A DNA stretch of 32,275 bases from IMG/VR virus record IMGVR_UViG_3300028364_000096, positions 1 through 32,275 of that record; one strand, given 5' to 3'. The translations under genes and the position numbers were made by a program. The DNA is from a virus. The stretch's first letter is position 1. Each line of letters begins with the position of its first letter. The notes beneath the pieces are model-generated. The model saw nothing but the letters and a program-made list of their open reading frames with translations, was not told the DNA's origin and ran no database searches. This document shows positions 6,445-31,948 of the stretch, piece by piece.

Positions 6445-6513
6445 ATTATACAACACTTGCTGAAATATGGCCTTGAATTTACTCAGTAAAATGTGAATTC
6501 AGCAAGTGTTGCT
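6445..6513 (-). promoter_or_regulatory. Late promoter with two AGCAA-N3-TTGCT palindromes (site A)
   Basis: The -10 box TATAAT is at 6445-6450. One palindromic site (minus strand AGCAAGTGTTGTA, 6449-6461) overlaps its upstream edge and a second perfect site (6501-6513) lies with its centre 52 bp further upstream. Together they form a 14-bp inverted repeat, CAACACTTGCTGAA at 6451-6464 and its complement at 6498-6511. The expected -35 position reads GGCCAT, a poor match, so an activator or a phage factor may be needed. Gives the start of the terminase-head operon. Confidence 0.6.
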
Positions 6514-6544
6514 TTATCCACATATCCACATGATGTCCACAGTA

Positions 6545-6889
6545 TCAAGAAAACTCACTATTGATGAATGAATAACCATCAATGAGCATTGTATCCTCAC
6601 GCTTGCCATATTGCTTTCTACAATACTCAGCGTGATTGCGACACACAGGATCGTTTTGCCTGATTTCAATCATTTGCCAAAAATCATCATGATTCATTTT
6701 TTCACCATACTCATTGAATATATCTTTGTCACTCAACCAAGCCTGCATTTCAATAACACTTTTATAAAACTCACCGCTATTGTATTGAAATGTGAATTGC
6801 CAGCCAGCTGATCTTTTACCAAGATGCAATCGCCTAAATCGGTTGCAGTGTCCACATTCCTCAAGTTCTGTATAGTAGTTTGTACTCAT
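6545..6889 (-). CDS. Conserved phage protein with Cys pairs, function unknown
   Basis: 114 residues. The start MSTNYYTELEECGHCNRFRR followed by LHLGKRSAGWQFTF recalls a small protein found in many phage early regions, but I know of no function for it. C12-x2-C15 with C83, H86 and C90 could form a zinc site. It is the last gene of the early operon before the terminase promoter, and its ATG overlaps the stop of the upstream 62-residue gene. Soluble, no signal peptide or membrane segment. Confidence 0.75.
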   Translation of the reverse strand: MSTNYYTELEECGHCNRFRRLHLGKRSAGWQFTFQYNSGEFYKSVIEMQAWLSDKDIFNEYGEKMNHDDFWQMIEIRQNDPVCRNHAEYCRKQYGKREDTMLIDGYSFINSEFS

Positions 6890-7074
6890 GATCTCGTACC
6901 CTTATAAGCCCCACCAATAACATCACGCATCAACTCAATGGCCTCAGCACGATTCTCAGCACGCTTTGCCAATCCACTAGCACTGGCACTTGTACTGTCA
7001 TTATCCTCAAGCAACCAAAGCACTCGCCTCAGCTTTCGTATGTTGGTCAGCATTTTTCTATATGATCCAGCCAT
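6886..7074 (-). CDS. Small basic helical protein, unknown
   Basis: 62 residues, mostly predicted helix. The N-terminus is basic (KMLTNIRKLRRVLWLL) and the middle is rich in Ser and Ala. ATGA-type overlap with the next gene and a two-base gap to the previous one support real translation within the operon. No recognised domain; a role cannot be assigned. Confidence 0.65.
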   Translation of the reverse strand: MAGSYRKMLTNIRKLRRVLWLLEDNDSTSASASGLAKRAENRAEAIELMRDVIGGAYKGTRS

Positions 7075-7076
7075 AA

Positions 7077-7283
7077 CTATTCCTGATTACTCTCATACTC
7101 CAAACCATTGGCAAACATATACGCAGCAGTTTGCGCCTGTACCGCACGTGTTTGAGCATCAATGCTGGTGGATACTGATTGCAGTGCCATCCAAATGAAA
7201 AGCAGCCACACTGTTGCAAAAAAGAATGTGCCACCAATGTCACTGGCGTTTGTCACCTCAACCTTTGTGATTTCTTTGCTCAT
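7077..7283 (-). CDS. Small single-pass membrane protein
   Basis: 68 residues from the ATG at 7283, which overlaps the preceding stop as ATGA; an in-frame start 21 bases earlier lies inside the upstream gene. One hydrophobic segment, about residues 20-40 (FFFATVWLLFIWMALQS), is followed by a polar helix. It is inside the early operon with helicase and zinc-ribbon genes, so a host-membrane role early in infection is possible, but nothing in the sequence defines it. Confidence 0.65.
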   Translation of the reverse strand: MSKEITKVEVTNASDIGGTFFFATVWLLFIWMALQSVSTSIDAQTRAVQAQTAAYMFANGLEYESNQE

Positions 7284-7570
7284 GAGTCTTTTTTCATAAA
7301 CCAATAAACATCCTTGTATTTCTTTGAAAGTCTATCCTCACCACACTCACCACAAAGCTGATCATCACCCACCCACCAACTGTGACAATCCAAGCACATT
7401 GCCATTTCAACCAGACGTGCATCTTTTGGTTTGAATTCACCAGCGCACTCAGGGTACTCAACCTCTAAAAATAGCAGTGCTGATGTCTCACCAGTTGCAC
7501 CCTCAACAAAGTACGATCCTTTGTTTTCATAGTCTTGAAATGCGCACATTCCTTTTGATTTGAGCCTCAT
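7280..7570 (-). CDS. Small zinc-ribbon protein
   Basis: 96 residues. Two Cys pairs, C59-x2-C62 and C73-x2-C76, ten residues apart, form a typical zinc ribbon; it is followed by a lysine-rich end. The first half has a beta-rich segment (ALLFLEVEYPE). The start overlaps the previous stop by the ATGA arrangement. Such modules usually bind nucleic acid or partner proteins; which applies here is unknown. Confidence 0.7.
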   Translation of the reverse strand: MRLKSKGMCAFQDYENKGSYFVEGATGETSALLFLEVEYPECAGEFKPKDARLVEMAMCLDCHSWWVGDDQLCGECGEDRLSKKYKDVYWFMKKDS

Positions 7571-7902
7571 GCTGATTTTTTCTTATCGTGAATAATAAAT
7601 CTAGTGCCATACTCATACGTGCAACGCTCAAACTCACCAAGGAAAAAGCACACGCCATTATGCTCAAAATCACCCCTGAGTGATTTGTAATTCCGCACAT
7701 CATGAAACTCAAATGAATAGCAATCATAGTCACCACCCCTTTTCCAATCGCCATTTGGCAGCTGCACAAATACAGCGTTCAATGAATAGCCACTCATCTT
7801 GCGCCTCACTGGAATGAAAACAGCTTTTGTCACCTTACAACCATATTCAGCTGATGGCACAATTTCCAACTTTTGCTTTTTGTTCATTTCCTCAAATTTC
7901 AT
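7567..7902 (-). CDS. Unknown early protein
   Basis: 111 residues from the ATG at 7902, one base after the helicase stop; a longer in-frame reading would run back into the helicase gene and is not preferred. The sequence is beta-rich with several aromatic residues (GDYDCYSFEFHDVRNY) and ends in a basic tail HDKKKSA. No motif recognised. Tight linkage suggests co-translation with the helicase. Confidence 0.7.
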   Translation of the reverse strand: MKFEEMNKKQKLEIVPSAEYGCKVTKAVFIPVRRKMSGYSLNAVFVQLPNGDWKRGGDYDCYSFEFHDVRNYKSLRGDFEHNGVCFFLGEFERCTYEYGTRFIIHDKKKSA

Positions 7903-7903
7903 A

Positions 7904-9142
7904 CTAAAATAATTTATTACCAGCTGGCACTGCTGCCCTGAATAATGCGTCTTGCTCAATCACCTTTGGATGCATCTTGAATACACCATCATTGAGGCCA
8001 ATCAAATGCAGCCCTGCCAATGAGCGCACACGTGAAATTGCCACATAGCCTTGGCCATACTCAAACACGCTGCTCAAATCAATGCTGGCAGTATCCAAGC
8101 TCATCCCCTGTGATTTGTGTACTGTCACCGCCCACGCCAGCCGCAATGGAAATTGCTTGATCCATGCCTTGGTGTGGCCGTGTTCCTCAATCATCCACTC
8201 AGCCTTTTCAGGTGAAATGAGCTGGCCATTCTTGAGCTTGATGCGTGGCCTACCGTTCACAAAGTCATGCACGTGGCCAATCGTGCCATTCACGTATCCA
8301 TCTTTGAAATTGTTGCGTGTAAACATCACCACTGCGCCCTCTTTGAGTTGTAGCTTTTCAGGTGAAAGGCAACCACGCTTGAGTGTGTCAATCATGAATG
8401 GAATACCACCAGTTTGCATTTCAAATGTGTATTCCTTTTTGTTGATAGCATCCAGCTTTTGCTGATTCAAACGCTCAACATCCACATTGTGTGTGAATAG
8501 TAGCGTTTCAGGTTGATCACTGCCTTGGCAGTTGCTCAGTATCTCTTTGTGGCGTTCACTCACATTGCTGTTGCGCATAGCGGTCAACACCTCAAGGAAT
8601 TCAGGATCATTTTGCCTGTGTTGCTCAGTGAGGTAGCACACTGCTGGTTGAGCCATTTGCCATGCAAAAGATTCAAAGGCAAACATCATTTCCTCAGCCC
8701 CTTTCACCACTGGTGGCAGCTGGAAAAAGTCACCCACAAATACCACCTGCAAACCACCAAATGGCTCATTGGCGCTGAGTATCGCACGCAGTACCGCATC
8801 AACATCATTGAGCATCACTGCATCCAGCATACTCACCTCATCAATGATCAGCACCTGTGTCTCTTTTACCTTTTGGCTCACCCACTGATTATTCTTGATG
8901 AAATTCACTTGCGCTTTTGTCAGGTTGCGCTTGATTCCCATACCAGTCCAACTGTGGATGGTCACGCCATTGATGTGACTGGCAGCAATACCAGTTGAGG
9001 CAGTGATGGCATAGCCAACTTTTTCTTTTTTCAGGTACTCAACAAACTGTGTCACTGTGTATGTTTTACCTGCACCAGCCTCACCAGTCAGGAATACATT
9101 GTCACCGCTTTTCAGGATTTCTAGTGCTTGTGATTGTTTCAT
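7904..9142 (-). CDS. Pif1/RecD-type SF1B DNA helicase
   Basis: 412 residues. Helicase motifs appear in order: Walker A GEAGAGKT (20-27), the TASTGIAA segment (48-54), Walker B DEVSM (101-105), motif III GDFFQLPP (137-144), EQHRQ, and near the C-terminus TVHKSQGMSLD, which is characteristic of Pif1/RecD2-like enzymes. It should unwind DNA 5' to 3' and most likely serves as a replicative or recombination helicase, since no DnaB-type helicase is seen in the genome. Its length is minimal for the family, without large accessory domains. The ATG at 9142 overlaps the upstream stop (ATGA), which decides the start. Confidence 0.93.
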   Translation of the reverse strand: MKQSQALEILKSGDNVFLTGEAGAGKTYTVTQFVEYLKKEKVGYAITASTGIAASHINGVTIHSWTGMGIKRNLTKAQVNFIKNNQWVSQKVKETQVLIIDEVSMLDAVMLNDVDAVLRAILSANEPFGGLQVVFVGDFFQLPPVVKGAEEMMFAFESFAWQMAQPAVCYLTEQHRQNDPEFLEVLTAMRNSNVSERHKEILSNCQGSDQPETLLFTHNVDVERLNQQKLDAINKKEYTFEMQTGGIPFMIDTLKRGCLSPEKLQLKEGAVVMFTRNNFKDGYVNGTIGHVHDFVNGRPRIKLKNGQLISPEKAEWMIEEHGHTKAWIKQFPLRLAWAVTVHKSQGMSLDTASIDLSSVFEYGQGYVAISRVRSLAGLHLIGLNDGVFKMHPKVIEQDALFRAAVPAGNKLF

Positions 9143-9504
9143 ATAGCTTGGCAATTATGGTTTTCTGGTAGTGCGTACAATCCAGCACGCCGCTTTGCAT
9201 CAGCCACTGTGGCCTCACCAGCTGTTGGTGATAATTTGATGCGGAATTCTCGCTTGCACTTTGCGCAGTTCACTGCCACAAACTCAAGTGGTGGCGCTGG
9301 CGTATGTGCTTTGATCAGGTCAAGCGTATCTGCAACACACTGCTCATCCTTGCTGCATGTGAAACATAGCTCAGGTTTCAGGTGTGGCATACCGCAAATT
9401 GATTGCTGCCAATGATTCTTTTTGTCGTATATGAATTTGATACTGAGGCAGCAAGGGCATTGTGCCAATAGCTCTTGCGCCTTTTGTAATTTGTTTACTG
9501 GCAT
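9139..9504 (-). CDS. Multi-cysteine (zinc-binding) protein, unknown
   Basis: 121 residues with three CxxC pairs, C16/C19, C47/C50 and C80/C83, plus C37 and C56. This could hold two or more zinc ions. It overlaps the upstream gene by ten bases and couples to the helicase start. A DNA-binding partner of the helicase is a reasonable guess from position alone. No homologous family is recognised. Confidence 0.75.
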   Translation of the reverse strand: MPVNKLQKAQELLAQCPCCLSIKFIYDKKNHWQQSICGMPHLKPELCFTCSKDEQCVADTLDLIKAHTPAPPLEFVAVNCAKCKREFRIKLSPTAGEATVADAKRRAGLYALPENHNCQAI

Positions 9505-9701
9505 GGCGTTGGCATTAGTTCCTCAATAAAATCAAGCGGCATCACTCGCATCCTGCCGCAATCAATCAATTCCTCATACGCAGCATAATAAATGCTCATT
9601 GCCTCACTAAATGCTGCCTTTCTATTTTCAGCAGTCACCACATACACATCCATTGGTGTGTTTTCAACTTGTTGACTCAAATGTACCCTGTATTTTTTCA
9701 T
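9495..9701 (-). CDS. Small early protein, unknown
   Basis: 68 residues from the ATG at 9701, the first gene after promoter B. It starts MKKYRVHLSQ and continues with a beta-alpha pattern (VYVVTAENRKAAFSEAM) as in many small phage proteins of unknown role. An in-frame GTG at 9725, only 5 bases after the -10 box, would add eight residues and make the transcript leaderless; the ATG is preferred because the residues after it look like a normal N-terminus. The conserved leader box discussed separately lies directly in front. Confidence 0.7.
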   Translation of the reverse strand: MKKYRVHLSQQVENTPMDVYVVTAENRKAAFSEAMSIYYAAYEELIDCGRMRVMPLDFIEELMPTPCQ

Positions 9702-9703
9702 AA

Positions 9704-9718
9704 TTTTCTCAATGATTA
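9704..9718 (-). repeat. Leader box TAATCATTGAGAAAA (copy B)
   Basis: Fifteen bases identical to a box before the 16186 gene. It sits two bases before the ATG at 9701 and downstream of promoter B. The sequence GAGAAAA may serve as a weak ribosome site or as a shared regulatory element. Confidence 0.5.
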
Positions 9719-9730
9719 TGTTCACTTTCT

Positions 9731-9770
9731 ATTATAGCAACACTTGCTGAAAATACAAGCAAGTGTTGTT
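9731..9770 (-). promoter_or_regulatory. Early promoter with paired palindromic operators (site B)
   Basis: Minus strand: -35 TTGTAT (9753-9758), 16-base spacer, -10 TATAAT (9731-9736) with TGC extension. Palindrome 1 (9736-9748, AGCAACACTTGCT) fills the spacer; palindrome 2 (9758-9770, AGCAAGTGTTGTT) lies at the upstream edge of the -35 box. Centres are 22 bp apart. This drives the helicase operon. Confidence 0.7.
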
Positions 9771-9792
9771 GTAAAAACTGTGTATAAAGATG

Positions 9793-10071
9793 CTACTTTT
9801 TGCCCTGTGCTGGATGGTCTTTTTGTAGGTCACTAATCAAAACACCTTTATTTTGCTCAACCCACCATTCACCTGATTTGTATGAATCAGGCAATTGCAG
9901 CTTTGGTTGCACTTTTCTTGGTTTTGGCTTTGGTGTGTATTGTTTTGGATCAGCAGTTTCAGGCTGGCGTGGTGGCATCCTGCGATCACCAACTGGCTTT
10001 GAGCAATCATTGCATGTGCGCCATGCAGGCAATATGCCAGCGCCACAAATCTGGCAGCTATTGAGTTTCAT
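9793..10071 (-). CDS. Zinc-ribbon protein with basic, proline-rich tail
   Basis: 92 residues from the ATG at 10071, which overlaps the upstream stop. The N-terminal ribbon has C6-x2-C9 and C20-x2-C23. The middle is rich in Pro and Lys (KPKPRKVQPKLQLP), and the end is polar. The combination suggests nucleic-acid or protein binding. It is the last gene of the RusA-headed operon, before promoter B. An alternative start 21 bases upstream adds seven residues. Confidence 0.7.
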   Translation of the reverse strand: MKLNSCQICGAGILPAWRTCNDCSKPVGDRRMPPRQPETADPKQYTPKPKPRKVQPKLQLPDSYKSGEWWVEQNKGVLISDLQKDHPAQGKK

Positions 10072-10303
10072 CAATCGGTTTTGGATGGTCACGCAAATGA
10101 GTTTTGCGTTGTGACTCAGCCCAAACCATCAACGCAAAATCTGTATTGAATAAATGCACAATCAACCACCGCCATCCTTTCATTGGCATCCACTTTGGTT
10201 TTGGTTTCACCGCCAATTTCAGCGTGTCAATCTGATCATTGGTGATGCTGGCAATCTTGCGGCGTGCATACTGCCTCACTTTCTTGGCTTTTTGTTGGCT
10301 CAT
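10058..10303 (-). CDS. Small basic protein, unknown
   Basis: 81 residues with a strongly basic N-terminus (QQKAKKVRQYARRK) and a central aromatic stretch (WMPMKGWRWLIVHLF). It overlaps the next gene by 14 bases. A nucleic-acid-binding role is possible from charge only. No family recognised. Confidence 0.65.
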   Translation of the reverse strand: MSQQKAKKVRQYARRKIASITNDQIDTLKLAVKPKPKWMPMKGWRWLIVHLFNTDFALMVWAESQRKTHLRDHPKPIDETQ

Positions 10304-10314
10304 ATCTCAATGTG

Positions 10315-10575
10315 TTATTCCTCATCAATAATTTCCTCAAGGTCAGGTTGCAGTTTCTTGGCTGGTATTCCACTGAATAGTATTTTGATTTGCTCAGCCA
10401 ATTCCTTTTCATCCTTGGCCACCCACACAGCGCCACCCTTAAGATCAGGATCAATGGTGTATCCATTGACTGCCTTGCTGATGTATATGTGGTCAGGCCG
10501 CACCAGTGCATACCCCTCTTTTTTCACAGCTGGTGTGGCAACTGTTTTGGCCACTGCTTTTTTCTTGGCAGCCAT
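10315..10575 (-). CDS. Small protein with Lys/Ala-rich start, unknown
   Basis: 86 residues. It begins MAAKKKAVAKTVATPAVKK, a flexible basic arm, followed by a compact alpha/beta core and an acidic end (LEEIIDEE). Its ATG follows the previous stop by three bases. Similar Lys/Ala arms occur in two other proteins of this genome (the 169- and 87-residue products, at their C-termini). Function unknown. Confidence 0.7.
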   Translation of the reverse strand: MAAKKKAVAKTVATPAVKKEGYALVRPDHIYISKAVNGYTIDPDLKGGAVWVAKDEKELAEQIKILFSGIPAKKLQPDLEEIIDEE

Positions 10576-10578
10576 ATA

Positions 10579-11088
10579 CTATTTTTTTGATTTCTTACCT
10601 TTGGCCTTTTTCTTTGGTGTCGCAACTGGCGGCTTTGGCTCATCATCAAGCCCCTCAATCTCAGCTGGCTCAGCAAACACCTCATCCTCATCATCACTAG
10701 CCTCATCAAGTGTGGCGTGATCAGGTGTGTTGCCTTTTGGCTTGGCTGGCTCAGGATCACTGGACAGCATCGCACCACGTTCCTGCACGGCTGATTGCTT
10801 TGAATCAGGCGCAACATCCTCAACCACACCAATCAACATCTTGAGGCCTTTCTTTTGAGCAATGTTGCCAGCACTGGTATTTGGTTTGACAATAAAAAAA
10901 TCAAGCAACCACTCAACTGCATCCTCAGCGCTCAAGCCCTCACTGATTTTCTCATCCACAAACAGCGCCGCTTTGGTTGAATCAATCACCAAACGCAGGC
11001 GGCCATTGTCCAGCTGCTCAATGCGGTACGTTTTGAAAAAATCATCAAAGCGCTCAATAATATCTTTGGTTGCAGTTTTAGTTGCCAT
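10579..11088 (-). CDS. Early protein with acidic linker and basic tail, unknown
   Basis: 169 residues. An N-terminal globular part (about 1-95) is followed by an acidic, disordered linker (EASDDEDEVFAEPAEIE region) and a strongly basic tail (PKKKAKGKKSKK). The layout suggests a folded head with a nucleic-acid-binding tail. It overlaps the upstream gene by 11 bases. No domain recognised. Confidence 0.7.
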   Translation of the reverse strand: MATKTATKDIIERFDDFFKTYRIEQLDNGRLRLVIDSTKAALFVDEKISEGLSAEDAVEWLLDFFIVKPNTSAGNIAQKKGLKMLIGVVEDVAPDSKQSAVQERGAMLSSDPEPAKPKGNTPDHATLDEASDDEDEVFAEPAEIEGLDDEPKPPVATPKKKAKGKKSKK

Positions 11089-11524
11089 GTTTTTTGTATT
11101 TTATTTCTAATTTTTCAAACCCTTTTTGGTCAGCCATTTGCTTGATCAGTTTACCAAACTCAACTGAAACAGCGTGCTTTTGCTCATCAGTCAATGGCAG
11201 TGCGCCATCAGCCTCTTTGAAATGCACGATCACCTCAGCCTCATTTGGCTCATGAGAAAAGTTGGCAATGCTGCCAATCTTGCTCAGTTTGTCACGCATG
11301 AATTCAGGTACATCCGCAGCCACAGGATTGAATGATTTGCGGCGTGCCACATCCTGTTCACGCAAAGCCTGTGCAACTGTTTTTGCAACAATGTCACTCA
11401 GGTTTTCAGTCACAACTTTGGTGATTTTCTTTTCAAACTTGGTTTGACTGTCACGCACCTCAGTGGCCATTGTGCAGGCTTTCTGAATCAGTTGTTGGTC
11501 TGCTTTTGTGAATTCAATTGGCAT
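11078..11524 (-). CDS. Early protein, unknown
   Basis: 148 residues, helical in the first 70 (coiled-coil-like heptads around KFEKKITKVVTENLSDIVAKTV, cited only as location 28-50), then an alpha/beta C-terminal part ending in a basic KYKKHGN. Lies between a membrane protein gene and the 169-residue gene in the RusA operon. Oligomerisation through the N-terminal helices is plausible; no function is recognised. Confidence 0.7.
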   Translation of the reverse strand: MPIEFTKADQQLIQKACTMATEVRDSQTKFEKKITKVVTENLSDIVAKTVAQALREQDVARRKSFNPVAADVPEFMRDKLSKIGSIANFSHEPNEAEVIVHFKEADGALPLTDEQKHAVSVEFGKLIKQMADQKGFEKLEIKYKKHGN

Positions 11525-11528
11525 ACGT

Positions 11529-11768
11529 TTATTTTATCCTACCCTCAAAGGTGTACCCAATCAATGCTTGGCATTGATCAACCTGCCATTGCTGCCAGTA
11601 GTACCCACCGCTTTTGTTATTCTCAGCCTGCACAATCCATGCAATGCACTCACGCTCACCGCTGGCATCAACTGCTGCAATGAGCAGTGTGGCCAGTATC
11701 ACTATGCCAACAATCGCAATTGTGGCTTTGGCTATTATTTCAATCATTTTCTCAATGGTTATACTCAT
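11529..11768 (-). CDS. Small membrane protein with C-terminal soluble part
   Basis: 79 residues. One membrane segment at about 12-33 (AKATIAIVGIVILATLLIAA) is followed by a short polar domain with two Cys. An AGGTGA sequence lies 10 bases before the ATG and is one of the few Shine-Dalgarno-like sites here. The first residues (MSITIEKM) contain the same ATTGAGAAAA string as the leader boxes. Role unknown. Confidence 0.65.
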   Translation of the reverse strand: MSITIEKMIEIIAKATIAIVGIVILATLLIAAVDASGERECIAWIVQAENNKSGGYYWQQWQVDQCQALIGYTFEGRIK

Positions 11769-11771
11769 AAA

Positions 11772-11999
11772 TTATTCACCTGAAATGAATTTTTTGGCAT
11801 CCTTGTCCAGCTTGAAAAACGGCAAAAAATACTCTTGCTTTTTTCCATGCTTTTGGCGATACACATCAAATCCTTTGCGGCTCACCTTTTTGACAGTGAT
11901 GCGGCCAATACCCTCAAGATCAGCTGCACCACCATCCTTGAGTGCATCAAGCAACTCAATTTCATTTTCTCTTGAAAGTCTTATTTTTCTGATTTGCAT
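11772..11999 (-). CDS. Small basic protein, possibly HU-like
   Basis: 75 residues. The order GIGRITVKKVSRKGFDVYRQ then FFKLDKDAKKFISGE loosely recalls the beta-arm and C-terminal helix of HU/IHF DNA-bending proteins, but the N-terminal helical part is short and the match is weak. High Lys/Arg content supports nucleic-acid binding. It overlaps the RusA gene end by 19 bases. Treat the HU suggestion as a hypothesis only. Confidence 0.6.
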   Translation of the reverse strand: MQIRKIRLSRENEIELLDALKDGGAADLEGIGRITVKKVSRKGFDVYRQKHGKKQEYFLPFFKLDKDAKKFISGE

Positions 12000-12358
12000 A
12001 ATTTTATTACTACCTCAACCCTGCTATTTTCTGCACCGCACCCAATGTTCTTTTCACTATGCTCAATGAACACCTGTGAATCATCAACCCAGCAAATACC
12101 GCTGAGTGAGTCTTTGACAATCTTTTTGAAATTGTCATTGTCACGTTTGTGTTTGGTGTCAAAATAGAATTTCACCCACAACTCAAGATTTCCCTCAAGC
12201 GGCTCACCTCGGTATTGAGTGCGTGCCTGCATTTGGTATATCTGTTTGATTTGCTTGCCATCCTCACTCATGTACACAGTCGGTTGCCTGAAACGGCAAT
12301 GCGCTTTGTATATGTGATTTGTTGTTGGCGGCTGTGGTGTCAATGTCAATTCAATCAC
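11981..12358 (-). CDS. rusA: RusA-like Holliday junction resolvase
   Basis: 125 residues. The family signature is clear: KRDNDNFKKIVKDSLSG (residues 71-87) followed by WVDDSQV (90-96). These supply the acidic residues (Asp73, Asp75, Asp83, Asp92/93 region) that bind magnesium and cleave four-way junctions during recombination and before packaging. The frame opens with GTG only six bases after the -10 TATACT of promoter D, so the mRNA is expected to be leaderless. First gene of its unit. Confidence 0.92.
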   Translation of the reverse strand: MIELTLTPQPPTTNHIYKAHCRFRQPTVYMSEDGKQIKQIYQMQARTQYRGEPLEGNLELWVKFYFDTKHKRDNDNFKKIVKDSLSGICWVDDSQVFIEHSEKNIGCGAENSRVEVVIKLCKSEK

Positions 12359-12364
12359 TCATTC

Positions 12365-12404
12365 AGTATAGCAACTGTTGCAGAAAATAACAGCAACAGT
12401 TGTG
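12365..12404 (-). promoter_or_regulatory. Early promoter with paired palindromic operators (site D)
   Basis: Minus strand -10 TATACT (12365-12370) with TGC extension; -35 position reads TGTTAT (12387-12392), spacer 16. Palindrome 1 at 12370-12382 (AGCAACTGTTGCA), palindrome 2 at 12392-12404 (AGCAACAGTTGTG), centres 22 bp apart as in sites B and C. Drives the rusA unit. Confidence 0.68.
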
Positions 12405-12408
12405 TATA

Positions 12409-12711
12409 TTATTGCTCAGCTGTGAGCCGCAACGCCTCTTTTTTCAATTTCTCAGTGTAGGCAAATAGTGAATCATACGCATCAGGATGCTCATCAGTAT
12501 CAGTAATGATCCCCTCAACTACTTTTGCAATGTCACGATACACAGCAGCAGTTTCAGTGCGCTTGGTGTATGCCACAGCAGCACGCTTTTCATCCATAAA
12601 TCTTTGTTTCCACGTGCGCTCACATAATACCCAGCCAATTGTGAGTGCCAACCACATCAAGCCTGTGAAAATAACTGCCACCACTAAATATCCAATCAAA
12701 GTCCAAAACAT
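12409..12711 (-). CDS. N-terminally anchored membrane protein, unknown
   Basis: 100 residues. A hydrophobic segment at about 2-30 (WTLIGYLVVAVIFTGLMWLA core) anchors it; the rest is a charged helical domain that probably lies in the cytoplasm. It is the last gene of the unit starting at promoter C. Function unknown. Confidence 0.7.
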   Translation of the reverse strand: MFWTLIGYLVVAVIFTGLMWLALTIGWVLCERTWKQRFMDEKRAAVAYTKRTETAAVYRDIAKVVEGIITDTDEHPDAYDSLFAYTEKLKKEALRLTAEQ

Positions 12712-12713
12712 AT

Positions 12714-13037
12714 TTATTTATTTATTGCGTTGTATAATTTCATCAGTTTCTCATCCTTGATCAATTCCCTGCTCACATTGGCGGCAAAGCGGTATGCAAA
12801 ATACTTTGATCCACTCTTGCCTTTGATCTGTACCCTTTCAAGCAGGCCAATGTTTTCCTGAAAAATATCAGTCAGGCGTGTCGGGCATTTGTAACTCATC
12901 AACCCCCACAGATTGAGTTCAGCCACAAATATCTCACCGCCAAATTCCCACGTTGGTACATAACGGCCACGATCCTCTTTTCTAGCCTGATACAGCTTAT
13001 AAAATGCCAATTGCTTTTGTGTGATTTTACCATCCAT
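12714..13037 (-). CDS. Early protein, possible winged helix
   Basis: 107 residues from the ATG at 13037, which overlaps the NinB-like gene stop; a longer reading would extend far into that gene. The pattern (KITQKQLAFYKLYQARK, then FVAELNLWGLMSYKCPTRLTDI) resembles a winged helix with a basic recognition region and ends in helices. It could be DNA-binding; it is one of the few candidates for a phage transcription factor here. No family recognised with confidence. Confidence 0.65.
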   Translation of the reverse strand: MDGKITQKQLAFYKLYQARKEDRGRYVPTWEFGGEIFVAELNLWGLMSYKCPTRLTDIFQENIGLLERVQIKGKSGSKYFAYRFAANVSRELIKDEKLMKLYNAINK

Positions 13038-13398
13038 GTTGTTGTTGATTCTCAATGAAATTCCAATAATCTTTTTCCTGCATTGCCTGCCAGCTTGGCC
13101 ACTCAGCCTCAAGGCCAGTTTTTCTGAGTATAGGAATCATGTGCTGCCACACTTTCTCACACTCATCAGTGGTCAAATCAGCTGTGCTTTCTTTGCCAGT
13201 CTCAATCAGTTGCACGGCACGCCACACCTCTTTGATGTTTTTACCACTCACCTCAAGCTCAACATTTTCCAGCAAAGGCCTCATGCCAATACCCTGTGCA
13301 GTCATTTCATTGGCAATGTTTCCAAATAGTTTGTGCATTGCCCTATTTTGCGCCAATGAGCGCGGTTTCTTTGGTTTTGGTGTGTTGGTGTCAGTCAT
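13027..13398 (-). CDS. NinB-like / 'SLAQN' family recombination-associated protein
   Basis: 123 residues. The start RSLAQNRAMHKLFGNIANEM, the middle GKNIKEVWRAVQ and GKESTADLTTDECEKVWQ follow the pattern of a phage family related to NinB (Orf), usually encoded in recombination modules and thought to help load recombinase on SSB-coated DNA. Location between RusA and the Sak4/nuclease genes agrees. The WPSW end also fits relatives. Exact activity is inferred. Confidence 0.75.
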   Translation of the reverse strand: MTDTNTPKPKKPRSLAQNRAMHKLFGNIANEMTAQGIGMRPLLENVELEVSGKNIKEVWRAVQLIETGKESTADLTTDECEKVWQHMIPILRKTGLEAEWPSWQAMQEKDYWNFIENQQQHGW

Positions 13399-13401
13399 GC
13401 T

Positions 13402-13614
13402 TTATTTTTGCGCTGTGAGGCGTTTCAGGTGGTACACAAAGCCAACTGTGCTGCCACCATAGGATTTGATTGATGTGCCGCCAATTGGATTCACGCTGAT
13501 CAATTCCCATCCTGCACTGCCAAGAATGTTCAGCGTTTTTTGATCCTCATCTGCAGGCTGGTTTTTGAAAATTCCTGTTTTCGCTTTGGTGGTGATTATT
13601 TTATATTCGTACAT
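13402..13614 (-). CDS. DUF4177-like small protein
   Basis: 70 residues. The start MYEYKIIT, the LNILGSAGWELISVNP turn and the final VGFVYHLKR beta strand match the DUF4177 pattern (YKY...GWEL...YYFKR). Function of the family is unknown. Gap of three bases to the neighbouring gene. Confidence 0.75.
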   Translation of the reverse strand: MYEYKIITTKAKTGIFKNQPADEDQKTLNILGSAGWELISVNPIGGTSIKSYGGSTVGFVYHLKRLTAQK

Positions 13615-13617
13615 AAT

Positions 13618-13851
13618 TTATGCCACATATTTTTCAAGCATATTCACTTGATGCTGATAATTTGGATGATTCTCACTTGGCAAAAGCACCACTGCTGCGC
13701 ACGCACTTGCAATTGGTATTCTCTTGCCTGAGTTATCACAGAAAAAATCATCCATTGCCAATCCTGTTTTCACAAAACAAGACTCATTGTATTTGGCGGC
13801 CAAGCGCTCAGTGTGGCGTGCCTCATCCAGTGTCAGTATTTTTATTGCCAT
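13618..13851 (-). CDS. Small early protein, unknown
   Basis: 77 residues. It starts MAIKILTLDEARHTERLA and has three Cys without a clear metal pattern. A TATAAT lies 8 bases before the ATG in a 74-base intergenic gap, so it may have its own leaderless transcript. No family recognised. Confidence 0.7.
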   Translation of the reverse strand: MAIKILTLDEARHTERLAAKYNESCFVKTGLAMDDFFCDNSGKRIPIASACAAVVLLPSENHPNYQHQVNMLEKYVA

Positions 13852-13859
13852 GTTGATTG

Positions 13860-13865
13860 ATTATA
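13860..13865 (-). promoter_or_regulatory. -10 box before the 77-residue gene
   Basis: Minus-strand TATAAT, 8 bases before the ATG at 13851. The intergenic gap also holds a GTGGCC-ACATT-GGCCAC hairpin around 13881-13897 just upstream. Confidence 0.45.
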
Positions 13866-13925
13866 TTTGCGCCCTCAGTTGCAGTGGCCAATGTGGCCAC
13901 CGCTGTGAAAGCACAAATGTGATTA

Positions 13926-14279
13926 CTAAAATGGAATATCCTCAGGATTGATTTCTTCTTCAGGGTACTCAGGCATCTGGTGATGCTGCTGATTCTGAGG
14001 CGCTTGCTGGTGTTGAGGCGCAGCTTGATGATGCTGTTGCTGATTGTTTTGCTGATAGCCACCACCATTGTTTTGCTGCTGATCCTTTGGTTGCTGCAAA
14101 AATACTTGGTATTGCACATTGCTGTCATTCATTTCAATGATGCGGTTGATTGAACCATCATCTTTTACAAACTCAGTCATTGTGCCAACGCTTGCCCAAT
14201 AGGTTTTTTTGCGGCCAGTTTGTGCATCAGGCTCACCGTATTCCTTTGGATTTGTGATGTTGTATTTATTTACTTGCAT
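13926..14279 (-). CDS. SSB-tailed protein (candidate ssDNA-binding protein without a clear OB fold)
   Basis: 117 residues. The C-terminus, EYPEEEINPEDIPF, copies the acidic IPF tail by which bacterial SSB recruits partner proteins. Before it is a Gln/His/Asn-rich linker (about 65-103). The N-terminal part (1-64) is too short for a standard SSB OB fold and has no recognised SSB motifs. It lies between the nuclease and recombination genes, where an SSB would be expected. Either a divergent small SSB or an SSB mimic. Its ATG overlaps the nuclease stop by 14 bases. Confidence 0.75.
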   Translation of the reverse strand: MQVNKYNITNPKEYGEPDAQTGRKKTYWASVGTMTEFVKDDGSINRIIEMNDSNVQYQVFLQQPKDQQQNNGGGYQQNNQQQHHQAAPQHQQAPQNQQHHQMPEYPEEEINPEDIPF

Positions 14280-15090
14280 ACGCTTTGAGTGTTTTATTTA
14301 CTTGCTTATCAATTGAATGGATTGTGGCCAAGGCCTTGAATCCAACATAGCCTTTCACTAAATCTGAGCGGCTGAGTGTCACAACGCCCACCGCACCTGT
14401 TTCTTTTGAAACGTGGATGATCATTGCCCCTGCCAACTTTTCGCCGTGTTCTTCTTCATAGGCCTTGAGGTATGCGCTGGCCTGATAGAAATGGCTGCTG
14501 TATACGCCCTTGCTGGTTTTATAATCCAACAGGTACTTTGCGCCATCAATCTCAACCAACTCATCACTTGTACCAACAAACATCTGCTTGAGTGAAAACA
14601 CACTGAATTCACTTTTGAGGAATTTTGGCTCAACTTGATCCACCCACTGGTGAAACGCCTCAATTCCCTTATCAGCCAATGCTTGCTCAGCCTCATCCAG
14701 CTCAGCGTAACTGTCAGGCATTTCCACTGATGCTGTGGCGCTGTATTCCTCAGCGTACTCATGCACCACTGATCCAACACTGGCAGCTGATTCCTTTTTG
14801 ATAGTGTGAGCAGTTTTGCCCTCAGCCACCATACTCAGCACATCATCTTTGGTGAATTGCACACCGTCACGCATCAGCTCAACAATCTTTTCCTCAAAAC
14901 AGTTGACTGCCCAATGCACCAGCTGTGGTGATTTGTCTAGCTTGCCAATGATTGAGGATGGTGATGGTATCCAGTCTTTGCGTTCCTCACCATCCAGCTC
15001 AACCAATTTGTACCTGTGGCTGTTTGGATAAAAATCAACCTGCACTTTTCCGCCGTAGAATTCCAAGCGGTTTTTTTCTGTTGCTGCCAT
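14266..15090 (-). CDS. PD-(D/E)XK exonuclease, RecB/Cas4-like
   Basis: 274 residues from the ATG at 15090, one base after the ATPase stop. Signature: VGSVVHEYAEEY with His110, Glu161 in SEFSVF, Asp176 in GTSDELVE, LDYKTSKG with Asp189 and Lys191, and Gln203 in YQASAY. This is the RecB-family core that degrades or processes DNA ends. Paired with the Sak4-like ATPase, it probably produces the single strands used in recombination. No Fe-S Cys cluster is visible, so it is not a classical Cas4. Confidence 0.88.
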   Translation of the reverse strand: MAATEKNRLEFYGGKVQVDFYPNSHRYKLVELDGEERKDWIPSPSSIIGKLDKSPQLVHWAVNCFEEKIVELMRDGVQFTKDDVLSMVAEGKTAHTIKKESAASVGSVVHEYAEEYSATASVEMPDSYAELDEAEQALADKGIEAFHQWVDQVEPKFLKSEFSVFSLKQMFVGTSDELVEIDGAKYLLDYKTSKGVYSSHFYQASAYLKAYEEEHGEKLAGAMIIHVSKETGAVGVVTLSRSDLVKGYVGFKALATIHSIDKQVNKTLKAYASK

Positions 15091-15091
15091 A

Positions 15092-15991
15092 CTATTTGGA
15101 ATTGTCAGCATCATACTGCTCAATAATATCCTCAAGTTGTGCCATGGTCATTTGCTCAATGTCATGCTCAGCATCCAGCTCACGCTCTTGAGCCTCAGCA
15201 ATCAGCTGTTGCTTTTTGGTCAGCTTTGGCACTGGCTTATCCTCAACCTTTTCCTCAGTATCAGCCTCAGGCGCTGGCTCAGGTTGTGCATCAGCTACTG
15301 GCGCAGCGGTTGCAGTGTTGAGCATTTTCTTGATGTATGCGTACTCAGGTTTTGCATATTTTCCAAATTTTCCAGTTCGATCCTTTGAAATGTATTTTGC
15401 ATCAGCTGCATCCATTGCAATCACTCGCTTTTCCTCACCACCGTGTTGAATAATTTGCATATAGCCAACCACATCAACCATGTTCACCAGTTCCTGTGAT
15501 AGCTTGGTGGCAATCATTGGCCGCCGCACAATCTGCTCATCATCTGTGCGCTCATCAACGTGTGCTACCAGCACCACATTCTTGCCAGTGTCTCGCAAGA
15601 ATTTGATGAAATTGCGCATTTCCTTTTTGACTGATCCCCAACCTGCCATTGTCAGATCGCCATTGGCTTGGCGGTTTTTGTTGCCGCTGATGGTATCTGA
15701 TTCCATGAGCTTATCCATCGCCTCACCAATTGGATCAACAATGATAGTCTCATAATTTTTGACAGAATCACGCAGCTGCCGCTTTTCATCTAGCGTTGGC
15801 CATGTTTTGAAAACTGCCACATCAACCTCAATACCTCTCTCACCAAAATACTTTGCACCGTTCTCAAAGTCCAGCAAAAGCGGCTTTGGAAATGATGCGG
15901 CAAAGGTTGTTTTTCCAACCCCACCTTGGCCATACACCATCATCATGAGTGTTGGCACTTTTGGATAATTTTTTGTGTTCTGAATTTCCAT
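15092..15991 (-). CDS. Sak4-like RecA-fold ATPase (recombinase)
   Basis: 299 residues. Walker A GQGGVGKT (21-28), then DFENGAKYF, a Walker B-like strand ETIIVDPIG (about 80-88) and VVLVAHVDERTDD form the phage nucleotide-binding protein pattern called Sak4 (AAA_24). The C-terminal third is acidic, disordered and helical and may mediate partner contacts. Sak4 proteins support single-strand annealing and often need a phage SSB; an SSB-tailed protein is encoded two genes downstream, after the nuclease. Confidence 0.88.
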   Translation of the reverse strand: MEIQNTKNYPKVPTLMMMVYGQGGVGKTTFAASFPKPLLLDFENGAKYFGERGIEVDVAVFKTWPTLDEKRQLRDSVKNYETIIVDPIGEAMDKLMESDTISGNKNRQANGDLTMAGWGSVKKEMRNFIKFLRDTGKNVVLVAHVDERTDDEQIVRRPMIATKLSQELVNMVDVVGYMQIIQHGGEEKRVIAMDAADAKYISKDRTGKFGKYAKPEYAYIKKMLNTATAAPVADAQPEPAPEADTEEKVEDKPVPKLTKKQQLIAEAQERELDAEHDIEQMTMAQLEDIIEQYDADNSK

Positions 15992-16003
15992 ATAACTAAT
16001 GGT

Positions 16004-16186
16004 TTATTTTACTAATTCGTTATCACGCATTTCATCAAAATCCATGTTTTCGTCAATGTACTTTGTGCAGCTGCAACGCACGCTTTGAATATCATCATGC
16101 TGGCCTGTGGTGTATTCACCTGCGCCATCACAGAATTCACAATTTGGATTTGGTTGCTTGCGCCGCACGTTTCCTTGATTTGTCAT
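16004..16186 (-). CDS. Small protein with DnaJ-like Cys motifs
   Basis: 60 residues from the ATG at 16186 (a TTG nine bases earlier is less likely). C16-x2-C19-x-G-x-G, then C38-x-C40, resembles one half of a DnaJ-type zinc finger (CEFCDGAGEY). First gene after promoter C, directly behind the conserved leader box. Might bind zinc and act as an adaptor; function unknown. Confidence 0.65.
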   Translation of the reverse strand: MTNQGNVRRKQPNPNCEFCDGAGEYTTGQHDDIQSVRCSCTKYIDENMDFDEMRDNELVK

Positions 16187-16201
16187 TTTTCTCAATGATT
16201 A
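16187..16201 (-). repeat. Leader box TAATCATTGAGAAAA (copy C)
   Basis: Identical to the 15-base box before the 9701 gene and directly abutting the ATG at 16186. Both lie in 29-30-base stretches between a palindrome-bearing promoter and the first gene. Confidence 0.5.
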
Positions 16202-16216
16202 TTTGGTAACTCATTT

Positions 16217-16256
16217 AGTATAGCAAGTGTTGCTGAATATGCAAGCAACTGTTGCT
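16217..16256 (-). promoter_or_regulatory. Early promoter with paired palindromic operators (site C)
   Basis: Minus strand -35 TTGCAT (16239-16244), spacer 16, -10 TATACT (16217-16222) with TGC extension. Perfect palindromes AGCAAGTGTTGCT (16222-16234) and AGCAACTGTTGCT (16244-16256), centres 22 bp apart. Drives the recombination unit. Confidence 0.72.
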
Positions 16257-16687: not shown

Positions 16688-17419
16688 CTACATGAATACA
16701 GGCACTTTTTTTGCAGCAGCGCCATTATGCTTTGAAACAACCTGATCACGCCAAGTGGCATATTGAGTCCACAACTGATTTGGTGTGGTGATCTTGGTGA
16801 TGTACTCAGTTTTGTTTGTTTTCGGCAAAATGGTTTTCACGATATTCAACACGGCCTCAAAGCCATATTGCTCAATCAAATCATCACAGGCTTGGCGCTG
16901 CACTTTGTGGCCGTACATGCGTTTGCACGCAGGATTGATTTCAACAAATGCCTCAATGATCTCAGCGCCAAGTGGATTGTGTTTTGGTGTGGTTTCCTCA
17001 GCAGCTGTGCTGCTGGTAATATCTGTTGTACTCTCTTGTGTACTCTCTGTTATAGAAACGTCAGTTTCTAGCGTTTCAGAAAAGCGAGTTTCTAGCGTTT
17101 GGAAAAGTAAGTTTCTTACCTTTGGAAAAGCAACCCTATAGTGCAGCGTTGGTTTGCCATTTGCTTTCAGCACTTTGGTTTCCAATACACCCATTTTTTT
17201 GAGTTTTCCCCTTGCGTTGTCTTGCTGGTATCGTGACAGGCAGGTTTCATTTTCAATTTCATTTTTCGTTTTATAAATGAATCCATCTTTGCGGCTACCT
17301 TTGTCACTCCAATACATCAGTTGCTGCAAATAAATTGCCTCATTGATGCCACCTAGTACCTTTGCCAGTGCTGGATAAAAAGCCACAGGCCGCTTGAGAA
17401 AATCTTGCAAGTTATTCAT
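16688..17419 (-). CDS. Replication initiator / helicase-loader-like protein
   Basis: 243 residues. The N-terminus (FYPALAKVLGGINEAIYLQQLMYWS pattern; landmark residues 14-40) reads as the winged helix of phage replication proteins that resemble O/DnaD types, followed by CLSRYQQDNARGKL, a likely recognition helix. The centre (100-150) is a Ser/Thr/Glu-rich linker encoded by tandem DNA repeats, and the C-terminus has a DnaD-like helical part (YGFEAVLNIVKTILPKTNK). The ATG at 17419 overlaps the upstream stop. Origin binding is inferred from the repeats within the gene, as in lambda O. Confidence 0.75.
   Translation of the reverse strand: MNNLQDFLKRPVAFYPALAKVLGGINEAIYLQQLMYWSDKGSRKDGFIYKTKNEIENETCLSRYQQDNARGKLKKMGVLETKVLKANGKPTLHYRVAFPKVRNLLFQTLETRFSETLETDVSITESTQESTTDITSSTAAEETTPKHNPLGAEIIEAFVEINPACKRMYGHKVQRQACDDLIEQYGFEAVLNIVKTILPKTNKTEYITKITTPNQLWTQYATWRDQVVSKHNGAAAKKVPVFM
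17028..17051. repeat. Two tandem 12-bp repeats next to the iterons
   Basis: GTACTCTCTTGT is followed at once by GTACTCTCTGTT inside the initiator gene, 12 bases before the three longer repeats. May be part of the origin, or only the trace of a Thr-Gln-Glu-Ser repeat in the linker. Confidence 0.45.
17064..17133. repeat. Three iteron-like direct repeats (candidate replication origin)
   Basis: Three tandem units: 17064-17087 (24 bp), 17088-17110 (23 bp) and 17111-17133 (23 bp), each of the form GTTTCTAGCGTTT-(1-2)-GAAAAG-NNA, the third with four bases changed or fewer in the first half. The 23-bp unit is not a multiple of three, so the third copy is read in another frame than the first two. Conservation is therefore of DNA, as expected for initiator binding sites. 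Confidence 0.6.
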
Positions 17420-17900
17420 GATCAATATATTTATTTTTTATAATTTCCAAATCACCATCATTCAACAAAAACCACTCACCCCTGTGGCGTTTGTGTTCAA
17501 AAAACTGATGCAAATCACTTTCAATCTGAATATAATCATCAACAGGAAATTCAAATACTACCTGAAAGCCGTTTGGATTTTCAGTGACATATTTTTTCTG
17601 CCTGCTTGCAATGTTTTTTGTGCGGCCAATTTTATAGTATATGCCCTGCCTGTACACATAGACAAAACCAGCAACTGGCTCTTTTTCAATTTTGAATTCT
17701 GAATCAACTAAATTTGATTCAACCTCATAATTTATTTGCGTGATCTCACTAGCTGGAATTTCCAATAATGATTCAAGCGCTTTGATGCATCTTTTTATTT
17801 TTTCCTCAGATGGAAACTGAGCGCCATTGAGTGAAATTTCCACATCGCCCTTTTCATCAAAGTGAAAAAATGGCGCTGATGGCAGCATTGAATATGACAT
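17412..17900 (-). CDS. GIY-YIG superfamily protein (T5orf172 / MUG113 type)
   Basis: 162 residues from the ATG at 17900; a TTG at 17924 would add eight. The C-terminal half matches the T5orf172 type: GFVYVYRQ (78-85), YYKIGRTK (88-95), Arg100, Glu127, His131 and GEWF (141-144). These residues belong to the GIY-YIG nuclease core, though activity of this branch is rarely shown. The N-terminal half is unfamiliar. It leads the replication transcript downstream of a structured intergenic region, so it may be a regulator or a DNA-processing enzyme. Confidence 0.8.
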   Translation of the reverse strand: MSYSMLPSAPFFHFDEKGDVEISLNGAQFPSEEKIKRCIKALESLLEIPASEITQINYEVESNLVDSEFKIEKEPVAGFVYVYRQGIYYKIGRTKNIASRQKKYVTENPNGFQVVFEFPVDDYIQIESDLHQFFEHKRHRGEWFLLNDGDLEIIKNKYIDHE

Positions 17901-17996: not shown

Positions 17997-18027
17997 ATAC
18001 CAGTTTCATTTGAAACTGGTATTTTTG
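17997..18027 (+). terminator. Intrinsic terminator oriented to the plus strand
   Basis: ATACCAGTTTCA at 17997-18008 pairs perfectly with 18011-18022, two-base loop, followed on the plus strand by a T run. On the minus strand no T run follows, so it does not serve the annotated genes. Confidence 0.6.
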
Positions 18028-21287: not shown

Positions 21288-21305
21288 ATTATAGCATCAG
21301 TTGCT
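21288..21305 (-). promoter_or_regulatory. Leaderless promoter of the lysin gene with single operator-like site
   Basis: TATAAT at 21288-21293 with TGC extension, six bases before the ATG. AGCATCAGTTGCT (21293-21305) overlaps its edge in the same register as in sites A-D, with one mismatch to the palindrome; no second site or -35 box is visible. Confidence 0.55.
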
Positions 21306-30445: not shown

Positions 30446-31948
30446 TCAGGATAACTTTGTCATTATGAATTGCAGCCGTGCTGGAATTGAGTTTGATGTG
30501 TATGTACCATCAGTATCACCAATTTTATTCACAATTTCAATATAATCACCATCAACCAAATCAATCTCAGTATCAAAATTATTTGAGGCATCACCGTATG
30601 CTGAACCACGTGAATAATTGATTGAAATGCCTTTGAAAACATCAGATCCATTTTTGCGCAAAAACACTTGGTATGAGGTACGTGCTGAGCCGCCTTGAGT
30701 ACGTGAAAGTGTTGCCTGCACTCTATAGCGGCCATCAGCGTTCACTGTGATCCTTTCGTTATTTACAGTTGTGCTGTGGCTGAAATTACCTGTACCAGCA
30801 TCTGAAACAGCAGCATCCCAAGCCGCCACTGTTTCAGTAAGATTTGAACCACCAAAGTTTTGTGGTGTTGCTTGAGCAACCTCAATATAATCATATACAC
30901 CACCGCCTCCACCAGCCAAAGCTGCAATGGCTTGCTTGATGCGTTGTGCAGTCCAGCGGCGCACTGTGGTTGCATCACCTGCCTCAGCCTCAGCTTGGCT
31001 CACCACGCTCACCCTTGAATTGTACGCAGTCTCAATCTCAGTGGCTGTTTGATCAGCAGTGGCATCAGCCTCAACATCATCCAGTTTTGATTTGTCAGCA
31101 GCGCTCATGAATCCAGCCGCACCTGTGGATGCATTTGAGTGTGAGTGAGCAGCCGCTGCCTTGGCATCAAGCGCCGCTTGCAGGCCTGAGGTATCGCCAA
31201 TGGCGTGTGAGTGTACTGAGTCAGCCTTGCCATCCAAAGCTGCCTGCAATCCTGAAATTGAGCCAATGCTGAGCGCATCCAGTGTACTTTTATTCAGCTC
31301 TATAAAATCAACAATTTCCTGCAATGTATCCAAATTGGTTTCATCACTACTGAGCAGCGTGTTGATGTTATCAATCAGCCCTTTCAATACTTTTCCTTGG
31401 TTTGCTGAAAGCGGTTTTGTGGTACTGGCACTGGTGAGTGTGTTTTCTATATCAGCGGCAACCAGCTGCAATGTATTGATTACGTTGCTCAAGCCCACCT
31501 CAGCGGCTGTGTGCGTGTGCGTGGCGGCTGCTTTGGCATTGAGTGCATCTTGTAGGCCTGTGATGGCTGCAATGGCGTGTGTGTGGCTCAGGGCAGCTTT
31601 GGCGGCCAACAGCGCATCAGTAGCGGTTTTGGTGTAATACGCTGAATCATGGTTGTGTACCGCAGCGGCTTTGCCATCAAGTGCCGCCTGCAATCCTGCA
31701 ATGTTGCCCACGCTCAAACTGTCCAAATCATCTTTGTTGGCTTTTATAAAGTCCACAATTTCTTGCAGCTCATCAAGGCTCACATCATCTGAATTCAAAA
31801 GGGTAGTGATGGCCACAACTGAGACGGTCAACTCTTTGAGCAAATTGGCTTTGGTCACTTGGCTAGTAACGCCAGCCTCAACCACTGGCAGTAATGCTGC
31901 ATCAGCGGCGGTTGTGATTTCAGGTAGTTGTGTGATTTTTTTACTCAT
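30446..31948 (-). CDS. Fibre protein with HxH motifs and C1q-like tip (candidate head fibre)
   Basis: 500 residues. N-terminus of the KITQLPEITTAADAALLPVV type common in phage fibres, then two copies of a module (about 50-93 and 198-240, LQEIVDFI...GLQAALDGKA). Five HxH motifs at 98-100, 122-124, 144-146, 246-248 and 268-270 probably bind metal in a trimeric shaft. A Gly run near 346-350 leads to a C-terminal beta-rich domain resembling C1q/TNF-like tips (YRVQATLSRTQGG, VFLRKNGSDVFKG, GDYIEIVNK). Its place between capsid and connector genes, away from the tail tip genes, suggests a capsid-attached fibre. Confidence 0.82.
   Translation of the reverse strand: MSKKITQLPEITTAADAALLPVVEAGVTSQVTKANLLKELTVSVVAITTLLNSDDVSLDELQEIVDFIKANKDDLDSLSVGNIAGLQAALDGKAAAVHNHDSAYYTKTATDALLAAKAALSHTHAIAAITGLQDALNAKAAATHTHTAAEVGLSNVINTLQLVAADIENTLTSASTTKPLSANQGKVLKGLIDNINTLLSSDETNLDTLQEIVDFIELNKSTLDALSIGSISGLQAALDGKADSVHSHAIGDTSGLQAALDAKAAAAHSHSNASTGAAGFMSAADKSKLDDVEADATADQTATEIETAYNSRVSVVSQAEAEAGDATTVRRWTAQRIKQAIAALAGGGGGVYDYIEVAQATPQNFGGSNLTETVAAWDAAVSDAGTGNFSHSTTVNNERITVNADGRYRVQATLSRTQGGSARTSYQVFLRKNGSDVFKGISINYSRGSAYGDASNNFDTEIDLVDGDYIEIVNKIGDTDGTYTSNSIPARLQFIMTKLS

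Follow-up and report, generated by a model that had tools for sequence, protein, structure and literature searches.

A 13-bp palindrome in fixed register with promoter elements of an uncultured phage, and related sites in its sister phage

A 13-bp palindrome, AGCAA-N3-TTGCT (AGCAANNNTTGCT), recurs at the promoters of an uncultured phage, known from the IMG/VR virus record IMGVR_UViG_3300028364_000096. The stretch analysed, hereafter called the window, measures 32,275 bases. All its called genes lie on the minus strand, and include terS, terL, portal/head and tail genes, and genes for endolysin, a GIY-YIG-like protein, a replication initiator, Sak4, an exonuclease, a NinB-like protein, RusA and a Dda-like helicase. 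Five promoters, labelled A to E, carry the palindrome or a degenerate form of it. Judging from sequence and position, the shared sites are real and conserved, and very probably operators. Dispersed palindromic operators are of a kind already known; the strict register with both promoter hexamers is specific to the sites described here. The elements found at each promoter are the following.

6445–6450, minus strand: promoter A -10 box TATAAT, 9 nt before the terS ATG; no -35 box
6449–6461, minus strand: A inner site AGCAAGTGTTGTA, 2 mismatches
6501–6513, minus strand: A outer site AGCAACACTTGCT, an exact copy, centred 52 bp upstream of the inner one
9731–9736, minus strand: promoter B -10 box TATAAT
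9736–9748, minus strand: B inner site AGCAAGTGTTGCT, exact; its final base opens the -10 box
9753–9758, minus strand: promoter B -35-like hexamer TTGTAT, 16 bp before the -10 box; read directly
9758–9770, minus strand: B outer site AACAACACTTGCT, 1 mismatch; its final base opens the -35 hexamer
12365–12370, minus strand: promoter C -10 box TATACT, before RusA
12370–12382, minus strand: C inner site TGCAACAGTTGCT, 1 mismatch
12387–12392, minus strand: promoter C -35-like hexamer TGTTAT; read directly
12392–12404, minus strand: C outer site CACAACTGTTGCT, 2 mismatches
16217–16222, minus strand: promoter D -10 box TATACT, upstream of the Sak4/exonuclease unit
16222–16234, minus strand: D inner site AGCAACACTTGCT, exact
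16239–16244, minus strand: promoter D -35-like hexamer TTGCAT, identical in the sister phage
16244–16256, minus strand: D outer site AGCAACAGTTGCT, exact
21288–21293, minus strand: promoter E -10 box TATAAT, 6 nt before the endolysin ATG
21293–21305, minus strand: E site AGCAACTGATGCT, 1 mismatch, running into ATAAT; inner-site register, no outer copy

Promoters B, C and D are built alike. The final T of the outer palindrome doubles as the opening base of the -35 hexamer, and that of the inner palindrome as the opening base of the -10 box. Because each dyad overlaps its hexamer by this one base, the centres of the two dyads are 22 bp apart, a distance made by the -35 hexamer (6 bp) plus the spacer (16 bp). 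Since the inner dyad ends on the first -10 base, the TG of an extended -10 element (TGCTATAAT) is part of its right arm, TTGC. The inner site of promoter A is degenerate precisely at the -10 junction, where TTGTA replaces TTGCT; its outer site precedes the likely transcription start by about 70 bp. A preliminary description of this DNA had reported the pairs at B, C and D, the contact of inner and outer palindromes with the -10 box and the -35 edge, respectively, and the diverging arrangement at A. All this holds, and is refined here by the one-base overlaps and the degeneration of the A inner site. Four promoters had been said to share the palindrome; all four do, but the fifth, in front of the endolysin gene (21293–21305), had been missed.

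Exact copies of AGCAANNNTTGCT are found six times in the window (6501, 9736, 16222, 16244, 18920, 20602), against 0.17 ± 0.40 expected and a maximum of 2 in 100 shuffles. The three pairs spaced by 22 bp were matched in 0 of 400 dinucleotide shuffles, in which any spacing from 13 to 60 bp never yielded more than one pair. Likewise, sites with up to one mismatch abutting a -10 box are 4, vs at most 1 per shuffle in the same number of dinucleotide shuffles. The palindromic site is carried at seven places, five of which are promoters. The exact matches at 18920 and 20602 reside inside genes, have no adjoining -10 box and are probably incidental; the former codes for part of a signal-peptide-like stretch. 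Most sites fit AGCAW-N3-WTGCT, and the conserved core is CAW-N3-WTG. On the coding strand this core stands beside -10-like boxes in 4 of 78 occurrences in the window and 4 of 40 in the sister phage contig L088, on the other strand in 1 of 87 and 0 of 43, respectively; about 0.4 and 0.2 are expected from core density.

The comparison with a sister phage, about 70% identical in nucleotide sequence to the window phage, provides what we regard as the decisive evidence. The sister phage is represented by contigs L088, L086, L087 and L006/L007. L006 overlaps L088 by 5,994 bases at 100% identity, and at its start it shares 65 bases, also at 100%, with the end of L086. Its early region is colinear with the window. 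L006 aligns to both window ends (1–937 and 31206–31414). Because sister contigs span both ends, the window is a circularly permuted phage genome that is almost complete, lacking no more than a few hundred bases. Two contigs nearly identical to the window, L005 and L085, carry the same sites as the window. AGCAA-N3-TTGCT is missing from the sister phage, where AGCAT-N3-ATGCT is found instead. Perfect copies of the latter in L088 are exactly two, and both abut TATAAT. One, AGCAT-GTG-ATGCT (AGCATGTGATGCT followed by ATAAT, at 13458), marks the RusA promoter; the other, AGCAT-CTG-ATGCT (AGCATCTGATGCT followed by ATAAT, at 3884), the endolysin promoter, and the register is that of the window sites in both. 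A further site, AGCAAGTCATGCT followed by ACAAT, lies ahead of a small early gene at L088 18001, and the terS promoter (L006:257) features a degenerate TGCAT-CAC-ATGAT (TGCATCACATGAT followed by ATACT). The counterparts of promoters D and B have a related, longer dyad, GTACAC-N7-GTGTAC, the spacer holding GTACACAAGTGATGTGTAC and its reverse complement. CACAA-GTG-ATGTG is found inside this dyad; the core CAA-GTG-ATG is kept, while the dyad is extended and shifted by one base. Each of the five window promoters thus corresponds to a sister promoter in which a dyad, whole or as a remnant, adjoins the -10 box. In two sister strains the operator at the B counterpart is unchanged, and the DNA immediately after it differs.

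As the sister phage keeps dyads in matching register at matching promoters, the single inner site is conserved between the two phages. Its arms co-vary, from AGCAA/TTGCT to AGCAT/ATGCT (AAxxxTT to ATxxxAT). The joint change of the arms, with symmetry and register persisting, matches what is predicted for a protein-binding site. The pair fares differently. The preliminary description had taken it as a functional unit to be sought in related genomes, and had named its absence from close relatives as the result that would speak against it. The inner site does recur in the sister phage, but the outer copy, and with it the pair, does not.

These data bear on the alternative that the palindromes are a by-product of the extended -10 element (TGCTATAAT), AT-rich spacers and chance, or else RNA hairpins in read-through transcripts. 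TGnTATAAT is indeed a recurrent promoter element in the window phage, and in Patescibacteria genomes TGCTATAMT joined to an AGCAW left arm exceeds the reversed control (17 vs 3). Such an origin is nevertheless very improbable, as it accounts neither for the exact left arms nor for outer copies set 22 bp away, nor for the co-varying arms of the sister phage, and single sites would form stems of just 5 bp in RNA.

On balance, the 13-bp dyads are probably operators of a sequence-specific, presumably dimeric DNA-binding regulator, acting at the promoters of this phage genus and perhaps encoded by the phages themselves. A dimer bound between the -35 and -10 elements, on a dyad which contains the TG of the extended -10, would mask the surface that RNA polymerase contacts, and its default action would thus be repression of the early units served by D, C and B, as of the endolysin promoter E. 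The regulator is most likely a repressor occluding the extended -10 element. The second copy at B, C and D, placed two helical turns farther upstream where the -35 begins, may permit cooperative binding and a tighter shut-off. Several observations weigh against this reading. No known repressor family or CI/Cro-like helix-turn-helix protein was recognised among the annotated window genes, although a new family is conceivable. The right arm TTGCT/ATGCT overlaps the extended -10 element and is partly explained by the promoter consensus, so that only the agreement of the left arm with it and the presence of outer copies call for a regulator. These copies are not found at sister phage promoters, and the 22-bp pair is specific to the window phage. 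Lastly, two sister promoters (D and B) hold a different dyad, and a single regulator for all sites is not required there.

Promoter A admits more than one interpretation. Since its inner site is degraded at the -10 box and the outer one lies far upstream, A may be weakly repressed, or perhaps assisted by a dimer bound upstream. The latter would make of the regulator a dual-action switch, which represses B, C and D and activates the terS promoter. In its favour, A has a good -10 box, no -35 box, an exact site upstream and a degraded inner site. A precedent is the phi29 protein p4, which represses promoters A2b and A2c and activates A3, a promoter with a poor -35 (PMC3100819). As in phi29, inverted-repeat sites occur both at early promoters and ahead of a late promoter whose -35 is poor or absent, but p4 sites (CTTTTT-N15-AAAATG) lie upstream of or at the -35 (PMC3100819), and the window site differs from them in sequence. 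Family searches of the window yielded no p4-like protein, the sister terS promoter has no recognisable upstream site, and other late promoters carry extended -10 elements and apparently need no activator. A dual-action switch is therefore held to be unlikely.

Late genes are also preceded by promoter elements free of the dyad. TATAAT or extended -10 elements lacking the site are found just before start codons at 2169, 4365, 28633 and 30421; the TATAAT-type boxes of late genes lie 4–14 nt from the start codon, and several are extended (TGnTATAAT). Upstream of 49 starts, exact TATAAT was counted 7 times, vs 0.56 expected and a maximum of 4 in 2,000 random draws. Given the closeness of these boxes to start codons, many transcripts may lack a leader, and there are late promoters besides A. 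Minus-strand TATAAT boxes at 2169, 4365, 13851, 19000, 21281 and 30421, several of them extended, end 6–14 nt before starts, have no obvious Shine-Dalgarno sequence and probably give leaderless transcripts. The leader ATAATCATTGAGA recurs directly before the ATG of the first gene of units in both phages (9701–9712 and 16186–16195 in the window; L088:8580–8592 and 8735–8745). The proposal that a single regulator times the infection can thus be retained in part. An operator-like site is shared, in fixed register, and kept in the sister phage; one early/late clock is not supported, because late -10 boxes exist without the site, and the endolysin promoter carries it.

The preliminary description had noted that no regulator gene is obvious in the phage, which agrees with our annotation, and had pointed to a possible winged-helix protein encoded at 12714–13037. 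This candidate found no support. It has no meaningful family match, no relative outside the window phage in the collections searched, and no BLAST similarity to the sister protein found at the same place; its AF2 model (pLDDT 45.7) is too poor for use. The replication initiator (16688–17425) is also an unlikely regulator, because its gene has tandem repeats of its own, of other sequence, and no exact site. These are three repeats of 23–24 nt (GAAAcGtcAGTTTC type) at 17049–17119, between the two domains of the protein, and are probable origin iterons. Upstream of the initiator operon, a perfect 26-bp palindrome (ATACCAGTTTCAAATGAAACTGGTAT, 17997–18022) may be either a terminator or an iteron-related site. 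The initiator of the window and that of the sister phage (L088:7321–8076) have a common C-terminal domain (38% identity) and unrelated N-terminal DNA-binding domains, a difference which reads as a domain swap at the same locus.

That the sites are immunity operators of a temperate phage, of the CI, P1 C1 or phiC31 c type, with a repressor too diverged for recognition, is rather improbable. The sites are dispersed within early promoters, and a sister with the same gene order has different operators, as in heteroimmune Cluster A phages (PMC6550527), but annotation of the window, which may be short of a few hundred bases, revealed no integrase, partition or recognisable repressor gene, and with all called genes on one strand there is no divergent switch region.

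The longer dyad of the sister phage is relevant to the hypothesis that a host regulator, such as a Patescibacteria LexA, couples the phage early genes to the SOS state of the host. The best cellular matches of TerL (33–46% identity) are mainly from Patescibacteria and Bacteroidota, and several Patescibacteria are among them. Because the promoters are of the TATAAT type, and not of the Bacteroidota TAnnTTTG type, a Patescibacteria host is favoured; a search of genome contigs with Sak4 for a prophage in the host gave nothing. Most of the Patescibacteria genomes sampled have LexA (91 of 116), and GTACAC-N7-GTGTAC is one mismatch away from GTATAC-N7-GTGTAC, found upstream of lexA in a single Patescibacteria genome (L372). 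However, exact AGCAWN3WTGCT is found in none of 65 Patescibacteria lexA upstream regions, and with one mismatch in 4, the host itself being not certain; boxes in these regions are TTCG-N6-ATTCG or GTATAC. Moreover, the paired site was found in 0 of 380 genomes, and AGCAWN3WTGCTATAMT is scattered, 1–3 per genome, and outlines no regulon. Control of the window sites by the host is quite unlikely. Candidate LexA boxes in the 65 upstream regions (L372–L440) are of at least two kinds, the direct repeat TTCG-N6-ATTCG (19 loci) and the GTATAC type (14 loci). Besides the copies at the D and B promoters, a third exact GTACAC-N7-GTGTAC resides inside the sister replication initiator gene, adjoining TGTATACAAACTGTATACA; these elements map to L088:8525–8560, 15400–15435, 7590–7608 and 7672–7690. 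The sister dyad possibly serves host SOS control, or marks origin sites. A bolder proposal, which we consider doubtful, is that an unrecognised regulator family, present in phages of uncultured small-genome bacteria (possibly Patescibacteria), has its operator in the extended -10 of early and lysis promoters, and that sisters swap the operator, even to a host-SOS-like dyad, keeping register and gene order, so that control would pass between the phage regulator and host LexA.

Almost nothing is known of promoter control in phages of uncultured lineages. An operator in fixed register, readable from sequence alone and kept between sister phages, offers a means of locating early and lysis units, and its sequence may be used to fish for the presumed regulator. 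Should the second sister dyad prove to be an SOS box of the host, the phage pair would illustrate operator turnover at the same promoters.

Several known systems resemble the one described. In phage lambda, OR and OL contain adjacent 17-bp operators about 24 bp apart, that is two helical turns, overlapping the -35 and -10 elements. Promoters B, C and D similarly have adjacent operators about two turns apart over promoter elements, suited to cooperative dimers, but the sites are 13 bp long, 22 bp apart and present at several promoters, and neither a CI/Cro-like protein nor a divergent switch accompanies them. The operators of phiC31 (CIR) and P1 (C1) are dispersed at many early promoters of temperate phages, each set being bound by one identified repressor. 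The same inverted repeat lies within several early promoters of the window phage as well, though neither a repressor nor temperate genes (integrase, partition) were found in the window. The closest description is that of the 17-bp repeats of Cluster O mycobacteriophages (Corndog; TGTTCGG-N3-CCGAACA), likewise palindromes with a 3-bp centre, in phages lacking integrase and with leaderless promoters nearby (PMC4351075). Neither the regulator nor the function of the Cluster O repeat is known, and the repeats are present in 34 copies genome-wide, often within genes (PMC4351075), rather than at about five promoters in fixed -35/-10 register as in the window. In Cluster A phages (L5/Bxb1), as here, a repeated operator differs in sequence between related phages with conserved gene order (PMC6550527, PMC9283540). 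Their stoperators, however, are asymmetric and oriented with transcription, number about 30 per genome, lie mostly outside promoters and have a known repressor (PMC6550527, PMC9283540); window sites are palindromic and mostly located at promoters.

In a scan of IMG/VR, the paired motif was found in the window phage only, plus four single chance-like matches. The sister dyad gave 86 matches, about the number expected by chance; more than one copy was found only in the sister phage, besides L283 (two nearby copies). Palindromes in promoter spacers show no general excess among 255 loci (25 loci vs 24 reversed), and only the window phage, its sister and L133 stand out. In the latter, a phage related to the window phage solely via the helicase, ACCCTAGCTAGGGT fills the spacer and abuts the -10 box at three promoters; the architecture of a dyad in the promoter spacer thus recurs with other sequences. 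Copies of the repeated ACCCTAGCTAGGGT dyad are located at L133:7817, 13100, 15326 and 18829. Dyads of other kinds are TTTGCAA-N5-TTGCAAA, found before a Bacteroidota-type -7 element at L033:243, 1895, 5585 and 10212, and GTTGTA-N5-TACAAC, found upstream of the -35 at L136:7137 and 13776, and in relatives of L136.

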